Made by a program: the position numbers and the translations under genes | The notes under the pieces: model-generated | The model's database searches: none | What the model was told of the DNA's origin: nothing | The model's input: the letters and a program-made list of their open reading frames with translations, nothing else | Shown: positions 7,830 through 34,634 of the stretch, one piece after another | Numbering within the stretch: the stretch's first letter is position 1 | Layout: each line of letters starts with the position of its first letter | Source of the DNA: a virus | DNA: 61,166 nt | Reading direction: 5' to 3' (one strand) | Virus record (IMG/VR): IMGVR_UViG_3300042291_001346 | Coordinates: 1-61,166 of that record

Positions 7830-8845
7830 AATGTAATAGGCATTTTTCCATTTAATTGATAATACTCCATAGGATATTCCCAGGCATTGTTTTCATGAGC
7901 ATATTTATATCTCAAGATAGCTTGTTCAAAGCCTTCATACTCTCGGTTAAATACTAAACCTCCTTCTAAACCTATTTTTATAATATTTTTAGATACTTCA
8001 AATACCATGGGAGAGTTGTATAACTCAGTTTCGACTACAATGTACAAGAAATTAAGTAGCTTATATCCTTTGTCTATCAGCTCTTTAATCTCAGGATGTT
8101 TAGATAGGCCCAAAGTATACACTGCTGCTTGGAAATCATATCTGTACTTCCAGAAATCACTGTTGAACATGCCAACAGTTTTGCCTGTAGACTTGAAGTC
8201 AATTGGTTGAATAGTTTGAGTATTATGATCTATAATAACTCTATCTAATTCACCTTTGAAATTTAATAATTTATGTTCAAAAGCCACAATAAATTTATCT
8301 AAAATGTCGATATTCTTACCAGGCTTCTTTACACAATAAGGAGCAGTAAACTTATCTCCTCGTAATGCCATTGTGCAATTGGTTGCTTTTGCATAATCAG
8401 TTTGAGTAATTAAAGACTTACCCTCTGATAATATTTTAATAGCCATATACTGATTACCTGCTTTAATCATAGCATCTATTCTAGTATCGTCTTTCCAATT
8501 GCCTTGATAGTTTTGAAATTTAACATGTTTTAAGATAATATCTCTTTGGGTATCCCACGTGCCTAAATCTGCTTTTGCCTCTATCAATTCTTCATAGATA
8601 TTGTCTAGTATAACTTTAACGGCATCGGTGACTCCCATACTATCTGGTACAATAGCAAACTTGCTATTGAATTCTTCTCTTGTGCTAGTCAACATTAAGT
8701 CTATAGCACTCCCTAAAATAAAGTGATCCTCAGTAGATGCCTCACGAGCCTCCATCTTCTTTACTGCTTGTAAAAAAGATTGAGGGCTCGTAAGTATTTT
8801 CTTTAGAGTACTTTGATTTAGAGCTCTTATTTCTCTATAATCCAT
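7826..8845 (-). CDS. PD-(D/E)XK nuclease, Cas4/RecB-like
   Basis: 339 residues. The N-terminus (REIRALNQSTLKKILTSPQSFL) is the helical entry typical of phage RecB-like nucleases. The core has FKGELDRVIID followed ~13 residues later by PIDFKST, giving the E-x-D...(D/E)-x-K catalytic arrangement. A downstream YDFQAAVYTLGL helix supplies the usual Q-x-x-x-Y motif. Such exonucleases process DNA ends and pair with annealing or recombinase proteins; a Sak4-like ATPase is encoded 7 kb upstream in the same block. Cysteines of an Fe-S cluster as in Cas4 are not evident. Confidence 0.8.
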   Translation of the reverse strand: MDYREIRALNQSTLKKILTSPQSFLQAVKKMEAREASTEDHFILGSAIDLMLTSTREEFNSKFAIVPDSMGVTDAVKVILDNIYEELIEAKADLGTWDTQRDIILKHVKFQNYQGNWKDDTRIDAMIKAGNQYMAIKILSEGKSLITQTDYAKATNCTMALRGDKFTAPYCVKKPGKNIDILDKFIVAFEHKLLNFKGELDRVIIDHNTQTIQPIDFKSTGKTVGMFNSDFWKYRYDFQAAVYTLGLSKHPEIKELIDKGYKLLNFLYIVVETELYNSPMVFEVSKNIIKIGLEGGLVFNREYEGFEQAILRYKYAHENNAWEYPMEYYQLNGKMPITL

Positions 8846-23790: not shown

Positions 23791-23816
23791 AATCAAAAAG
23801 AAATTAAATAATTAGA

Positions 23817-24329
23817 TTATTTAGCTAATGCAGCAGCAATTGCAGACGCTGCAGAAGTCTCAACACGTGTAGTATCAGTAAGGATGATATGTTTAGCCTC
23901 ACCCAATACTACGCTTGTGCGTACATAAATGTACATACCATTGTGCATAATAAAGTCACCGTCTTTTCCTGCACGTTTAGCACGTGTGTCAAAGTTTGCT
24001 ACTTCGAAGTCACTACCTTTAGTAGTCTCGTTAATTTGAATGTTCAATGGTTGTGATTCGAAACCAACAAAACGTGGATCAACCATGTCTAATTGTAATT
24101 CCTCACCTTCAGCCAAGGCCAAGTCCAAACCTAATAGTTTGTTAACGTCAGCTGGTTGTGCAGATAACCATGCATAACGAGGCTTAGATTGATTAAAGCG
24201 ATCATCAGATGCATTTAATAAACCTAACACGTTAGTAGGATTGTTACCTGTGTTTACTACTTGAGCAAATGTTAATTGTACTTTGCCACCTTTTACTCCT
24301 TTTGCTGATTCTAAAACGATTTTGTTCAT
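23817..24329 (-). CDS. Abundant-type conserved hypothetical protein, possible ssDNA-binding or structural
   Basis: 170 residues. Beta-rich with an Ala-rich C-terminus (TSAASAIAAALAK). Codon and base use look more optimised than the neighbours, it has its own terminator, and it follows a large structured leader region (24386-24710), which together suggest strong, separate expression. I considered a crAss-like single-stranded-DNA-binding protein, but no OB-fold motif is certain. Segment FIMHNGMYIYVRTS is the most distinctive stretch. Confidence 0.55.
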   Translation of the reverse strand: MNKIVLESAKGVKGGKVQLTFAQVVNTGNNPTNVLGLLNASDDRFNQSKPRYAWLSAQPADVNKLLGLDLALAEGEELQLDMVDPRFVGFESQPLNIQINETTKGSDFEVANFDTRAKRAGKDGDFIMHNGMYIYVRTSVVLGEAKHIILTDTTRVETSAASAIAAALAK

Positions 24330-24385
24330 GATAATAGTTTTTAATAATAAATAAATAGATAAATAATAGATTGTACTCTGAAATC

Positions 24386-24710
24386 AGACTTATAAAGTCT
24401 TGAAATTAAGCATGCTAGAGTGACATGCTTAAAGTTATCCTTCACTGTATTTTTTCGACGATGCTAACAGTATGGATTAATAAAAGTTTAATGATTAGTT
24501 TAAAGACCCTCATCAAATAACCGTCAAATAAGTGTCCAATTTAAAACGATTGATTATTTAATGAGGGTTTACCTTAAAACATTGCGTAGTTAGAACATGA
24601 TCCAACTTGATCTAACTATGTGGTTGTTCGGGATTTCCGACTAACCACTTGGTGAGTTACTATTTAGTAAGTAATTAATCCTCCTTATGCACTACACACA
24701 AGGAGGATTA
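24386..24710. repeat. Hairpin array 1 (gene-free 24330-24717)
   Basis: At least seven stem-loops follow one another: AGACTT/AAGTCT (24386-24400); TTAAGCATG/CATGCTTAA (24406-24432); ACTGT/ACAGT (24444-24471); ACCCTCAT with ATGAGGGT plus flanking AAATAA/TTATTT (24506-24568); TAGTTAGA/TCTAACTA (24587-24618); GTGGTT+TCGG with CCGA+AACCAC (24620-24648); TTACTA/TAGTAA (24657-24670); and an 11-bp perfect stem TAATCCTCCTT/AAGGAGGATTA (24676-24710). No open frame fits. It may be a structured RNA, a leader of the 23817 gene, or an origin. A second array is at 25703. Confidence 0.75.
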
Positions 24711-24717
24711 AATTTAA

Positions 24718-24951
24718 CTACCTCTTTTCACTTAACCACTCCCCAGTCTCTGCTAGAAAAAAGATGTATAGAATAATGTTCAGCACCCATAATGCAGCTG
24801 ATGATGTTACATCATTAAATGTTAAGGGTGTCAGGATTGATAATCCTAATGCTACTATAAATGTAATAGTACATACCATGATGAATGGTACAATAAATAA
24901 TGCTAGTACTTTAACAGGTCTAGCTGTTGTTTTTAAGTCTTTAAATTGCAT
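24718..24951 (-). CDS. Small membrane protein
   Basis: 77 residues with two hydrophobic helices (residues ~14-40 and ~50-68) and a short charged end (ETGEWLSEKR). First of a cluster of four or five very small membrane proteins between the two hairpin arrays. No family recognised. Confidence 0.6.
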   Translation of the reverse strand: MQFKDLKTTARPVKVLALFIVPFIMVCTITFIVALGLSILTPLTFNDVTSSAALWVLNIILYIFFLAETGEWLSEKR

Positions 24952-24994
24952 AATAGTTGTTTTAATAGTGAGTAATTTGATACAAGTTATAGCA

Positions 24995-25156
24995 TTATCT
25001 TCGTGCTATGTCGAGAAGTAGGTTAATAGCAAAGCCTAACATTGAGGCTAAAGATATTAATGTACCTAAGTTAGGCGCTGTATTATTAATTAATACAATG
25101 CCTAACATAAAGAATACTGTAAATACAAAGTACATGAATATAACTAATTGATTCAT
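24995..25156 (-). CDS. Small membrane protein
   Basis: 53 residues, ATG at 25154-25156, TAA at 24995-24997. Two hydrophobic helices (residues ~4-22 and ~30-48) with a short loop, ending in DIARR. Its start overlaps the stop of the next small membrane gene as ATGA, so the pair is translationally coupled. Shorter than usual cutoffs but coherent. Confidence 0.6.
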   Translation of the reverse strand: MNQLVIFMYFVFTVFFMLGIVLINNTAPNLGTLISLASMLGFAINLLLDIARR

Positions 25157-25335
25157 AGCTTAGTATGTTTAGTTTGATAGTCATAGTCCAGTATAGCAAC
25201 AAATGCTAGTACAGCAGACAAGATAAATGCGGTTACAGATCCTACTATTTCATTGTTTGTAGTAGATGTCCATAGTGAGCAAACACTAGTAAGCATTAGT
25301 ATAATGCCTAAAGAGATAAAGAATAATTGTTTCAT
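25153..25335 (-). CDS. Small membrane protein
   Basis: 60 residues: two hydrophobic helices (~4-22 and ~30-48), C-terminal charged DYDYQTKHTKL. Layout is like the 53-residue neighbour, to which it is coupled. The two could be diverged duplicates or subunits of one small membrane complex. Confidence 0.6.
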   Translation of the reverse strand: MKQLFFISLGIILMLTSVCSLWTSTTNNEIVGSVTAFILSAVLAFVAILDYDYQTKHTKL

Positions 25336-25337
25336 GG

Positions 25338-25406
25338 TTATTGTATTATGATTAAGTAAATAGTGAATGTTAATATCACTGCTGAGATTATGATGCCTAG
25401 TATCAT
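25338..25406 (-). CDS. Possible 22-residue membrane peptide
   Basis: ATG at 25404-25406 and TAA at 25338-25340 give a 22-residue peptide that is almost wholly hydrophobic (Ile/Leu/Val/Thr). It fits the gap before the next small membrane gene, but length alone makes it uncertain. Confidence 0.3.
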   Translation of the reverse strand: MILGIIISAVILTFTIYLIIIQ

Positions 25407-25440
25407 ATGTAATAGTTTAAAGGTTTATAATAGAGTGGTA

Positions 25441-25677
25441 CTATTTACCGTACCACTCGTCTAACATATCTCCCATAATCTCTTCGATTATAGCATTGTC
25501 GTGCATTTCTTGTGCTATTTCACCATTGAATTTAAATCTAGGTGTAGGCTTAGGTGCTTGTACTCTTGTGCTATTTCTAATGATAAGCTTAAGAGTATTA
25601 CGTAAGTGATTGATATCCATTGTATCAACATCAATCTTCTGACCATTCTTCATAGTCCAGTATACAGGTGAGTTCAT
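25441..25677 (-). CDS. Small soluble hypothetical protein
   Basis: 78 residues. Charged and helical in the C-terminal half (EMHDNAIIEEIMGDMLDEW), basic in the middle. No family recognised. It lies at the edge of hairpin array 2, which may form its untranslated leader. Confidence 0.6.
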   Translation of the reverse strand: MNSPVYWTMKNGQKIDVDTMDINHLRNTLKLIIRNSTRVQAPKPTPRFKFNGEIAQEMHDNAIIEEIMGDMLDEWYGK

Positions 25678-25702
25678 AGTATTAATGTTAAGGTAAATAA
25701 AA

Positions 25703-26042
25703 TGAGCAGTTTGTCTACATGCTCAGGTATACGACGAATATCACGTCCTTTCGTACTCTCACAAGGTTGCAACCCCTGATGTTTCCTTCTGAAACTTACT
25801 TTCTTTATCTGATGTCCGTTCTATTATCTTGCGTCCAAAATACTTTATTTGACGGCTTTAGTATAATACTATTATACTTACTTGACATAAGAAGATCCTG
25901 CTTGGATGAGAGCATTTACATTAAGCCATATCTATTATATGATAGGGCTTATCACGCATACTATGCGTTGGTGTTTACTACCCATGATAGGATAGTAACC
26001 ACACCGTTAACAACGACTAACTTGTTCATACTTAGTGAGTTA
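25703..26042. repeat. Hairpin array 2 (gene-free 25678-26081)
   Basis: Consecutive stem-loops: TGAGCA/TGCTCA (25703-25725); palindrome GGTTGCAACC (25765-25774); GTTTC/GAAAC (25781-25795); GTATAAT/ATTATAC (25861-25877); AAGCC-TATC/GATA-GGCTT (25923-25950); ACGCAT/ATGCGT (25954-25968); and an 11-bp stem with a 2-nt bulge (25970-26005, GGTGTTTACTA with TAGTAA-CC-ACACC). The words CGACTAAC and ACTTAGTGAGTTA (26014-26042) recur nearly exactly in array 1 (24638-24659), hinting at common origin. A long plus-strand frame across it looks non-coding. Confidence 0.7.
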
Positions 26043-26081
26043 AGTGTTAATAATAAGGTTGTATTTCATGCCTTCGGCGGT

Positions 26082-26103
26082 AAAAAAACCCCCTTTCGGG
26101 GGC
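26082..26103 (-). terminator. Strong rho-independent terminator
   Basis: Minus strand: GGGGG/CCCCC stem (26089-26093 with 26098-26102), GAAA-type loop, then seven T. It lies 6 bp after the stop of the GC-rich gene and isolates that gene from array 2. Confidence 0.9.
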
Positions 26104-26108
26104 ATTGA

Positions 26109-26417
26109 TTACCATGCCAATAGCACTCGCTTGCCCTTGGCAATGCTCCACGCACCATTCGGTCCGTCTTCGCCACTTGCGTCACGCACTGCCTCGAACT
26201 CACCTGCGGTGAACGTGTAGCTTGCGTCGCTTGTGTCGTGCCCTGCATCGATTGCAGATTGACGGATGCGGATATAATAACCGTCGTTCATAAACGTGTT
26301 AGCGTCTACGACTGTTACCTCGGACGCATTGAACTCGCCCAATTCCTGCACTAATGCATATAACGGTGCCCCGTACTGTTTGATGTCGGCAGATACCAAC
26401 GATAAATTTAAACCCAT
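26109..26417 (-). CDS. GC-rich hypothetical protein, likely recent acquisition
   Basis: 102 residues, acidic, soluble, with FTAGEFEAVRD and WSIAKGKRVLLAW near the end. No family recognised. The gene is visibly above 50% GC, whereas its surroundings are about one third GC. It has its own strong terminator and a GC-rich hairpin upstream (26448-26464). A single transcription unit with foreign composition is typical of a moron, a gene gained recently and independently expressed. It is the first leftward gene from the divergent control region. Confidence 0.65.
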   Translation of the reverse strand: MGLNLSLVSADIKQYGAPLYALVQELGEFNASEVTVVDANTFMNDGYYIRIRQSAIDAGHDTSDASYTFTAGEFEAVRDASGEDGPNGAWSIAKGKRVLLAW

Positions 26418-26447
26418 GATTGCTATGTTTTAAGGGTGTAAGAGCCA

Positions 26448-26464
26448 CGGGGGTGTTTCCCCCG
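26448..26464. repeat. GC-rich hairpin
   Basis: CGGGGG (26448-26453) and CCCCCG (26459-26464) around TGTTT, in the leader of the GC-rich gene. In the plus direction a short T-run follows (26470-26474), so it could also block rightward read-through. Confidence 0.6.
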
Positions 26465-26710
26465 CGCCATTTTTAGTAGGGGTTGTTGGTTTAGGTGGTA
26501 ACCACGCCCTTCATATCATAGACCCCCTAAAAAATATATATCATATGATGGGGGGGGTATATTTTGGAGACAGGTACTGATGATATTTTTAGGGCACTTC
26601 CCAAAAAATATTATAGATAGAAAAAAGGATTCCTAAATAATATCAAGCGTGAAAACAGAAAAAATCTTCTATACCCTATACTGCTCCTACGCTACAGAGG
26701 ATTTATACGA

Positions 26711-32192: not shown

Positions 32193-34634
32193 ATGAGCTC
32201 ACCTGTAAAGATGCAAGGCTACATTAGTTTCCCTAGACAGAAACTATCTGATAAGCAGAAAGATGATAATTGGTACAAGAAGAATATTGACTTCGCAGAA
32301 CACTTACTTACATCTGATGTAAACCTTCGCTCTAACTTTAAGAATAAGAAAGCTAACTATAATCTGAGAGCTAATATTATTAACTCTAAGGATTTTGAAA
32401 AATATATCAATCCTGATAACTTAGATATGGAATCACTTCCTGCAAGTTTTCAGCACGTAGGAATTGAGAATTCTAAAATTAATTTACTCTTAGGCGAATA
32501 CTCTCGCCGTAAAAAAGAATTTAAAGCATATATCTCTTCTAATGATTCAGAAGCAATCTCTCGTAAAGAGCAGGCGTTGATGGAGCAAATTAAAACAGAG
32601 GTTACTAGTATGATTACTAGTACATCTATCACTGAAGAAGAGATTCAAAAAAGATTACAAGCTTTAGAAAAATATAAGACATATGAATTCCAAGATATCG
32701 CTGAGATAGTATCTAATAAAATTCTTAAGAAAGAATATAAAGAAGGAGACTTTGATTTTACTTTCTTAAAAACTTTTGAAGATCTATTAGTTGGTGGTGA
32801 GGAAATTATGTATTGTGGCGTATTAGGAGGTGTTCCTGTAATGCGTCGTGTTAATCCAATGAACCTTTATACTATGGGAGGTAACTCTATGTATATTGAG
32901 GATGCGGATATTATTGTAGAGTACGGTTACAAATCTATTGGGCAAATTATAGATGATTACTGGGATACGTTATCGGCAGATGATGTTGACTTCTTAGAGC
33001 GCGGTAAAACAGATGCATCAGCAGGCGGCGGAGGTATAGGCCTTAACCGAGATATTTCTGTTTATGATTACTACGGCGAGCAAGGAGCACTATCTATTTT
33101 CCATCCCAATGAGATGGGAACTAGAACATTTGCAGGTGCATTTGATACATACGGAAACGTGCGTGTATTGAAAGTATGTTGGAGATCAAGACGTAAGATT
33201 GGAGAGTTAACTTATTTTGATGATGAAGGTCAAGAGCAAAAAGACTGGGTTCCAGAAGACTACAAACCTAAAAAAGAATTAGGAGAAACAGTAGAATGGA
33301 AATGGGTAAATGAATGGATGGAAGGTACAAAAATTGCTGACCATATCTACACACTTATGCGTCCAGTGCCTTATGCATCTAAATCATTAGTAAACAAATC
33401 TAAAGGCACTCCTCCATACGTAGGCTCCGTCAACTCCACCAACGATTACAAAGTCCAATCCCTTATGGACATTATGAAGCCTCTTGCATATTCTTATGAT
33501 ATCGCCTACTATAAAAGAGAGCTAGAAATCGCCACGTATAAGGGTGCCTTTACTGCTATCAACTCGTCGCTTATTCCGTCAGGTTGGGATCCTAAAGAAT
33601 GGATGAGATATGTAACTATCAACAAGTTTGCGTGGTTAGATCCTACAAATGAAATTTTAAAAGGCCCATCTCAAGGTAAATCTGCAGGAGCATTTAATAC
33701 ACTTACTGCTCAACAAATACAAATGGGAGATCCTAATGCTATTGGTATGTATACAAACTTACTATTAGACATTGAGACTACTCTAGGTAAATTAGCAGGA
33801 GTATCAGGAGCAAGAGAGGGAGAAATCAGCAACCGTGAAGCAGTACAAAATGTTGAGCGCGAGATGACTCAAAGTTCTAACATTACTGAGAAGTGGTTCG
33901 CTATCGATGCTAACTTCCGTAAGCGCGTACTTACTAAATTCTTAGAGTGCTGTAAATATGCATACAAAACAAATCCTAAAAAGGGTCAATACGTATTAGA
34001 CGATATGGGCCAGGAAGTAGTATCTAAATTCGACGAGTTTGTATCTACTGAGTATGACGTACACGTTTCTAACTCTACTAGTGATACACAATTGTACAAT
34101 GACCTAAGAGCACTTTCTCAAGCGGCTATTCAAAATGGTCAAGCAACTATTGCGGATCTTGTGGCTATCTCTCAATCAGAATCTGTACAAGAGATTGCTA
34201 AAAAACTTGAATCTTCTTCTAGAAAAATTAGAGAAGAAAATCAAGCAATGGAAGAGAAGAAAATGAAACAAGCGCAGCAGCAAGCACAGCTTGAGGCACA
34301 AGATAGACAAGCACAACGTGACTTCGAAATGAAGAAACATGATGATGAAATCGCAGTTAAACGCGAGCAGATTCAAGCTAACTTAGAATTAGGACACATC
34401 AAAGAAATGGGTAGTGAAGTAAGACATCAACGCGATAATAGTACGCGCGTAGATACTGATAAAAACGGTATCGATGATTTTTTAGATTTACGTCGCACAG
34501 ATATTGATGAGAACTATAAAAATGAACAAGTACGTTTAGAGGAGGAAAAGCTAGCAGAAACACAGCGAGCTAACATGGAAAGAGAAGCTATTCAGAGAGC
34601 AGCTCTTTCTAAGAAACCTACAAGCTCTAAATAA
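32193..34634 (+). CDS. Portal protein
   Basis: 813 residues, the usual size for crAss-like portals. It follows the terminase and precedes scaffold-like and capsid genes. The middle has features of portal wing/crown regions (GGEEIMYCGVLGGVPVMRRVNP), and the last ~200 residues form a long Gln/Glu/Lys-rich coiled coil (KMKQAQQQAQLEAQ) extending as a barrel. The C-terminal segment DTDKNGIDDFLDLRRTD looks like a Ca-binding DxDxNG-type loop. It forms the dodecameric vertex ring for DNA passage. Confidence 0.85.
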   Translation: MSSPVKMQGYISFPRQKLSDKQKDDNWYKKNIDFAEHLLTSDVNLRSNFKNKKANYNLRANIINSKDFEKYINPDNLDMESLPASFQHVGIENSKINLLLGEYSRRKKEFKAYISSNDSEAISRKEQALMEQIKTEVTSMITSTSITEEEIQKRLQALEKYKTYEFQDIAEIVSNKILKKEYKEGDFDFTFLKTFEDLLVGGEEIMYCGVLGGVPVMRRVNPMNLYTMGGNSMYIEDADIIVEYGYKSIGQIIDDYWDTLSADDVDFLERGKTDASAGGGGIGLNRDISVYDYYGEQGALSIFHPNEMGTRTFAGAFDTYGNVRVLKVCWRSRRKIGELTYFDDEGQEQKDWVPEDYKPKKELGETVEWKWVNEWMEGTKIADHIYTLMRPVPYASKSLVNKSKGTPPYVGSVNSTNDYKVQSLMDIMKPLAYSYDIAYYKRELEIATYKGAFTAINSSLIPSGWDPKEWMRYVTINKFAWLDPTNEILKGPSQGKSAGAFNTLTAQQIQMGDPNAIGMYTNLLLDIETTLGKLAGVSGAREGEISNREAVQNVEREMTQSSNITEKWFAIDANFRKRVLTKFLECCKYAYKTNPKKGQYVLDDMGQEVVSKFDEFVSTEYDVHVSNSTSDTQLYNDLRALSQAAIQNGQATIADLVAISQSESVQEIAKKLESSSRKIREENQAMEEKKMKQAQQQAQLEAQDRQAQRDFEMKKHDDEIAVKREQIQANLELGHIKEMGSEVRHQRDNSTRVDTDKNGIDDFLDLRRTDIDENYKNEQVRLEEEKLAETQRANMEREAIQRAALSKKPTSSK

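Follow-up and report, generated by a model that had tools for sequence, protein, structure and literature searches.

The locus studied here raises the question of what two hairpin-rich tracts are doing among the small genes of a phage genome. The window, the whole stretch of DNA that was analysed, is a virus record of 61,166 bases that encodes a Crassvirales capsid protein; its match to PF23898 (Crassvirus major capsid protein; E 7.1e-84, residues 6–500) places the virus, a crAss-like phage, in that order. Genes lie on the − strand, read leftward, up to ~26.4 kb and are read rightward beyond it, so both tracts, array 1 (24386–24710) and array 2 (25703–26042), are situated inside or between leftward transcription units. 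In the explanation that we favour overall, with a probability of roughly 0.6, both arrays would be RNA features of the − strand transcript. Array 2 would be a small gene followed by compact pseudoknotted RNA modules placed between small accessory genes, with recombination exchanging module arms and order. Array 1 would be an inter-operon region in which 3'-end hairpins and a terminator-like stem are followed by a conserved 5' leader before a 170-aa gene.

The abundance of hairpins, the starting point of an earlier note on this DNA, is real. Compared with dinucleotide shuffles, array 1 folded with z = −7.8 on the − strand and −6.2 on the + strand, and array 2 with z = −3.5 (−) and −2.5 (+); both out-folded all or nearly all shuffles, with the larger effect on the − (gene) strand. 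Several long stems, 24674–24711 among them, are almost perfectly paired. A 120-nt sliding scan gave windows near z = −4.5 to −4.9 in both arrays, against a background 5% quantile of ~−3.0. A few other window sites fold as strongly or more (e.g., 32701 and 8701), so the arrays, though strong, do not stand alone. Both of these sites are very strong predicted folds inside protein genes, at 32701–32820 (−; z ~−8, antisense) and 8701–8820 (−; z ~−6).

The arrays had also been suspected of being duplicates. They are different things and not a duplicated pair: no module is common to them, and the words they share are near chance. Two 13-mers are common to both (≤1 mismatch) compared with 0.25 expected, a count reached in 5.7% of shuffles. 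On the array 2 side the shared words fall in the 5'UTR and start of a 22-aa ORF, and on the array 1 side in a stretch for which BLAST matched none of the relatives examined. The ORFs between the arrays had been described as membrane-protein genes, which by eye fits the small hydrophobic ones (77, 53, 60 and 22 aa) and does not fit a 78-aa ORF, which looks unlike a membrane protein. This last gene (YWTMKNGQKIDVDTMDINHLRNTLK; 25441–25677, −, from the ORF list) lies directly downstream of module C. It matched no Pfam or PHROG family, and genes similar to it follow RNA arrays in L090, L229 and L231, which belong to other crAss-like lineages.

Relatives of the locus were brought in via the 170-aa gene left of array 1, which yielded 13 contigs. 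Their alignment with the arrays showed short conserved noncoding blocks with variable spacers between them; one conserved block of array 2 is the 22-aa gene and another is the 3' end of module A. The description of the arrays as gene-free consequently fails for array 2, in which this ORF (MNKLVVVNGVVTILSWVVNTNA; 25961–26029, −) is conserved and coding-like. Read on the − strand, array 2 consists of this microgene and then two RNA modules, A and C. The microprotein family is 19–24 aa long with the pattern M..YVII.GV[VL]T...W..N[TP]NA-stop. At least 25 distinct copies occur in relatives (including L023, L024, L046, L049, L069, L092, L110, L112, L162, L224, L321 and L322), and differences from the window copy by codon position were 117/73/179 in the same-length set, third positions varying most. 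A hairpin over the stop codon (ACGCAU/AUGCGU; 25954–25968, −) has compensated forms in relatives, AAUGCU[UAA]AGCAUU in L112 and AACUCU[UAA]AGAGUU in L321 and L328. A second predicted hairpin (AAGCC...GGCUU; 25923–25950, −), between microgene and module A, recurs with altered sequence in L002, L030, L112 and L321, and in L046, L049, L069, L092 and L110 a terminator-like hairpin stands immediately 3' of the microgene stop. A leader-peptide or attenuator layout is a possible reading of this arrangement.

Module A (25754–25914, −) is a predicted RNA pseudoknot whose ends are fixed and whose arm is exchangeable. It has an 8-bp closing stem (UGCUCUCA/UGAGAGUA), a conserved UCCAAGCAGG and a variable arm at about 25779–25896, and the loop UUGC of the hairpin CAGGG-GUUGCAA-CCUUG pairs with GCAG to form the pseudoknot. 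The ends read UACUCUCA-UCCAA(UU)GCAGG ... CAAGGRUUGCAACCUUG-UGAGAGUA. IMG/VR was scanned with 17 bases of the module A end and with 18 bases of a further module, B, which gave at least ~120 stretches each. Both modules were first found by exact sequence words, and such searches favour near-identical ends; the contigs are metagenomic and all copy counts are lower bounds. When module A copies were picked for clustering by the internal motif and hairpin only, IMG/VR held at least 104 distinct elements in at least 51 arm clusters. Each of the more frequent clusters is found in 4 to 10 different surroundings, and the same surroundings are also seen with different arms. The shortest copy (L021) has ~49 nt and no real arm; other arms reach ~200 nt.

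Compensatory changes supported this structure. In 29 distinct module A cores, 98.6% of cells were paired, a figure inflated by the complementarity filter applied to the A and B alignments (the leader and module C hairpin 1 were not filtered in this way). Double changes occurred at 8 of the 17 pairs, and double-change cells numbered 20 compared with 3.5 in shuffles, none of 500 shuffles being as high. Sliding the 3' partners as a control lowered pairing to 46% or less. At the pseudoknot pair 17–29 both sides have changed in five sequences, and the variants GUAG x UUAC or CUAC replace GCAG x UUGC in L037, L179 and L089. A test of the closing stem P1 without the complementarity filter found compensatory types, too few of them to stand apart from the shuffles (98 observed, shuffled maximum 98). 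The arm class of the window copy is also carried by L128, L094, L071 and L064 with compensated stems. By eye, the stems of its last hairpin are GUUUC/GAAAC, ACUCU/AGAGU, AUACC/GGUAU and ACAGU/ACUGU, and those at the arm base are UGUC/GAUA, UAUC/GAUA and UACU/AGUA. In L009 (3270–3385) a different closing stem (AAGAGUGUG/CACACUCUU) encloses GGACAUCAGA in a layout resembling the window arm, and the same arm class may therefore sit on different scaffolds. A possible mimic of the 23S rRNA sarcin-ricin loop (AGUACGAAAGGAC; 25745–25757, −) was rejected because just the window and L002 have it, at the junction of modules A and C.

Module C (GAAAGGACGUGAUAUUCGUCGUAUACCUGAGCAUGUAGACAAACUGCUC; 25704–25752, −), a predicted two-hairpin RNA, adjoins module A in this virus and in several relatives. 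Its copies, at ~20 loci, are about 80–93% identical. Double changes were seen at 5 of its 10 pairs (14 double-change cells vs. 5.5 shuffled), including 3 of the 4 pairs of hairpin 1, which was unused in choosing copies. Relatives carry further modules, often in tandem, of which module B is an example absent from the window. Its layout is UAAUGCACCAUAACUCAC-UUCCCAAGG-GUGAGCAGUUGUAA, then 28 to ~185 nt, then UUACAACUGAGUGCAGAGGG, and a loose search gave at least 164 distinct copies, a few of them spurious. In 42 cores, 16 of 23 pairs showed double changes (115 cells vs. 24 shuffled). The predicted three-way junction has strongly covarying P1, P2 and P3, and a pseudoknot between hairpin loop and 3' flank (UCCC x GGGR) is kept in 96% of cells. 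This pseudoknot hardly varies and therefore rests on conservation, plus one compensated copy, CAC x GUG in L168. The predicted plan, a three-way junction whose hairpin loop pairs just 3' of the closing stem, resembles that of flavivirus xrRNAs. Module B differs from these in lacking an Rfam xrRNA match, in having the knotted hairpin as its first arm and not its second, and in belonging to DNA phages.

Two kinds of evidence indicated the molecule in which these elements fold. Read on the gene strand, module A has 38 G.U cells to 3 A.C cells and module B 38 to 5. In each module one conserved pseudoknot pair supplies roughly half of the G.U cells or more; without that constant pair the ratios are ~11:3 and ~16:5. 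A DNA hairpin would prefer neither strand, so this one-strand preference points to RNA. Orientation agrees: the next downstream gene is on the module strand for 80 of 87 copies of A and 80 of 82 of B. The modules therefore appear to act as RNA. In modules A, B and C and in the leader of array 1, compensatory changes in stems are far above shuffles, and we consider it very likely that the modules and this leader are conserved RNA elements. Among the candidates of the earlier note, structured noncoding RNA is thus the one that gained strong support, from these compensatory changes, the excess of G.U over A.C and the gene-direction orientation; its proposed check for conservation and covariation in related phages was run and left the idea standing.

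The elements could instead act as DNA, as folded single-strand recombination sites of the attC kind or as miniature inverted-repeat mobile elements. They do have paired conserved ends around a variable interior, they are present or absent at module edges, and the same element occurs in many surroundings; integron attC arrays are likewise modular, with conserved paired ends enclosing a variable terminal structure. This reading is nevertheless very improbable in view of the G.U preference, the covariation of the module A pseudoknot and the orientation with genes. attC sites function as single-stranded DNA with a GTTRRRY core used by an integrase. The ends of module A (TACTCTCA / TGAGAGTA) do not carry that GTTRRRY / RYYYAAC core, no target-site duplication was evident in the pairs inspected by eye, and the shuffling can be accounted for by recombination between conserved ends. 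A replication origin, also put forward for the region, is less probable still, to the point of being hardly credible. The region is structured, lies near the divergence of gene directions and is close to the cumulative GC-skew minimum at about 22–25 kb. That minimum is broad, however, and coincides with the change of gene direction; no iterons or initiator-type repeat family was found in 23800–26700, and module order and content vary between relatives.

The modules are spread across the order. A Crassvirales capsid was found in 32 of 34 long module-bearing records, with scores from 27 to 328 bits, and several lineages are therefore involved. In a sample chosen without regard to modules (11 capsid relatives of at least 45 kb, the window left out), module A was present in six and module B in four, and in several of these records module A precedes the leader by about 1.3–2.2 kb, the same arrangement as in the window. 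Turnover was seen between close relatives. Around the array, L229 and L231 are 89–97% identical and L228 and L229 78–90%, and module blocks are present or absent among the three; after one shared module, L231 has A and L229 a variant of B. The earlier idea of recombination sites that move the cassette is wrong as stated, because the arrays have no shared ends, and keeps a true part in that modules are gained, lost and swapped. Judged from these sequences, the module pair of array 2 is reused and shuffled by hundreds of related uncultured bacterial viruses. A noncoding block of ~390 nt (L229:4950–5332; L228:5612–5997), 90% identical between these two and largely missing from L231, looks like a larger structured RNA.

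Searches for known counterparts were negative. No Rfam family of 4227 scored above its curated threshold in the window, nothing was found inside the arrays of 12 relative loci (only tRNAs elsewhere), and permissive Rfam scans returned chance-level matches only. Among INPHARED cultured phages, the window arrays and the large L090 array were unmatched, bar a 46-base chance match in a Vibrio tail gene. A cellular or prophage origin was rejected: a 17-base word gave two matches in 84,980 genomes, both in ordinary-looking coding DNA and taken as chance. No description of the modules was found in the full-text literature outside subscription papers. A Crassvirales review and a comparative study (PMC10136315, PMC7886860) deal with introns, inteins and tRNAs; neither of them mentions structured noncoding RNA. 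The phage tRNA arrays of crAss-like genomes are also tandem structured RNAs (PMC10136315). They differ from the present arrays, as a tRNA search of the window found none and the modules are not tRNAs by Rfam.

GOLLD and ROOL, which are large ornate phage RNAs, share with the modules that they are phage-carried structured noncoding RNAs with structure under selection. Those are single long RNAs, whereas here many short module classes without Rfam match stand in tandem and are shuffled.

Array 1, read leftward, holds a long hairpin, a second hairpin, a terminator-like stem and the leader. The long hairpin (UUAAUCCUCCUU / AAGGAGGAUUAA; 24674–24711, −), predicted from inverted repeat and fold, comes just after the 77-aa gene, and the part around it had no BLAST match among the relatives. 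At the position of these first hairpins, L002 carries an additional gene (1636–1935; up to 99 aa), which the window seems to have lost. The hairpin AGUUAGA/UCUAACU (24587–24619, −) is compensated in the same place in L002 (AGUCAGGA/UCCUGACU), and L003 and L006 have other hairpins there. Between the two transcription units, a predicted long stem (ACCCUCAU...AUGAGGGUCUUU; 24500–24570, −) is terminator-like with a weak U-run of its own; relatives have AAGCCCU..GGGGCUUUAUUUU at this position.

The leader RNA (24383–24480, −) consists of an outer stem, a stem P2 with the conserved loop NGCAUCGUCRNAAAAN, a variable hairpin and the hairpin AGACUU-UAU-AAGUCU. It precedes the 170-aa gene (23817–24329, −) in 13 of 13 relatives, even where the arrays differ completely. 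Most of the independent capsid-chosen records have a leader-like loop, and in almost every copy inspected this same gene comes next. In 15 leaders picked by the loop and last hairpin (P4) only, double-change cells numbered 36 compared with 13.4 shuffled; 34 of the 36 are in P2, in which both sides change at every pair. The leader probably regulates the 170-aa gene. Its layout of structured RNA, AU-rich tract and start codon recalls the T4 gene 32 leader. The parallel is one of layout only, because the 170-aa protein has no single-stranded-DNA-binding match in Pfam, PHROGs or a fold search. This protein had no Pfam, PHROG or phage match, and its predicted model (pLDDT 71) no credible PDB match; a single-stranded-DNA-binding protein, which would have supported gene 32-like autoregulation, thus found no backing in family, PDB fold or phage matches with a medium-confidence model.

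The modules could likewise be cis-regulatory leaders or aptamers for the next small gene. The tie of the array 1 leader to one gene in all relatives speaks for this, as does a next same-strand gene some hundreds of bases downstream (median). We regard it as improbable, since the modules show no usual terminator or translation switch and no Rfam riboswitch match, and since their tandem arrangement and free change of partners leave no class tied to one gene.

For the modules we tentatively prefer a role in message processing and stability, which we put well short of even odds. They would be co-transcribed, take up their fold during transcription and work in cis. As knotted barriers in the polycistronic message, they would set where it is cut, in the AU-rich linkers, and which piece survives exonucleases. 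Action in cis is preferred because the modules are in tandem between same-strand genes, have compact closing knots and tolerate any neighbour. Conserved arm classes count against this mechanism, as they are more than a pure barrier needs.

Such classes, conserved and swappable, are better explained if the modules are trans-acting RNAs cut free at the AU-rich linkers, the knotted base being a scaffold and the arm the active part, aimed as a decoy or antisense at host factors or defence. In favour are the many arm clusters on one scaffold, their within-cluster conservation with compensatory stems, frequent swapping, the location of modules among variable small genes and the L009 arm in its different closing stem. 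A position inside same-strand operons, however, fits cis action too; we consider this reading possible and somewhat less probable than the first. A fuller version is a little more doubtful again: an order-wide system of interchangeable knotted scaffolds and swappable effector arms in tandem arrays, diversified by recombination, with the arms acting in trans against host factors or defence. The cis and trans readings leave about a third of the probability for ligand regulation, a DNA-level function or something unforeseen.

crAss-like phages rank among the most abundant known viruses, and the modules would amount to several new families of structured RNA, present in hundreds of copies across several Crassvirales capsid lineages and combined like cassettes. 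As stability elements they would give a DNA phage a novel means of shaping its messages; with trans-acting arms they would be a novel and rapidly changing type of phage RNA weapon or shield. In both cases they are testable RNA markers in genomes whose small genes are mostly functionally unassigned.

Upstream of array 2, a 102-aa gene (26109–26417, −) lies in a stretch of higher G+C (41.5% at 26–27 kb vs. ~34%). It is ended by a clear intrinsic terminator (GCCCCCGAAAGGGGGUUUUUUU) at 26083–26104.
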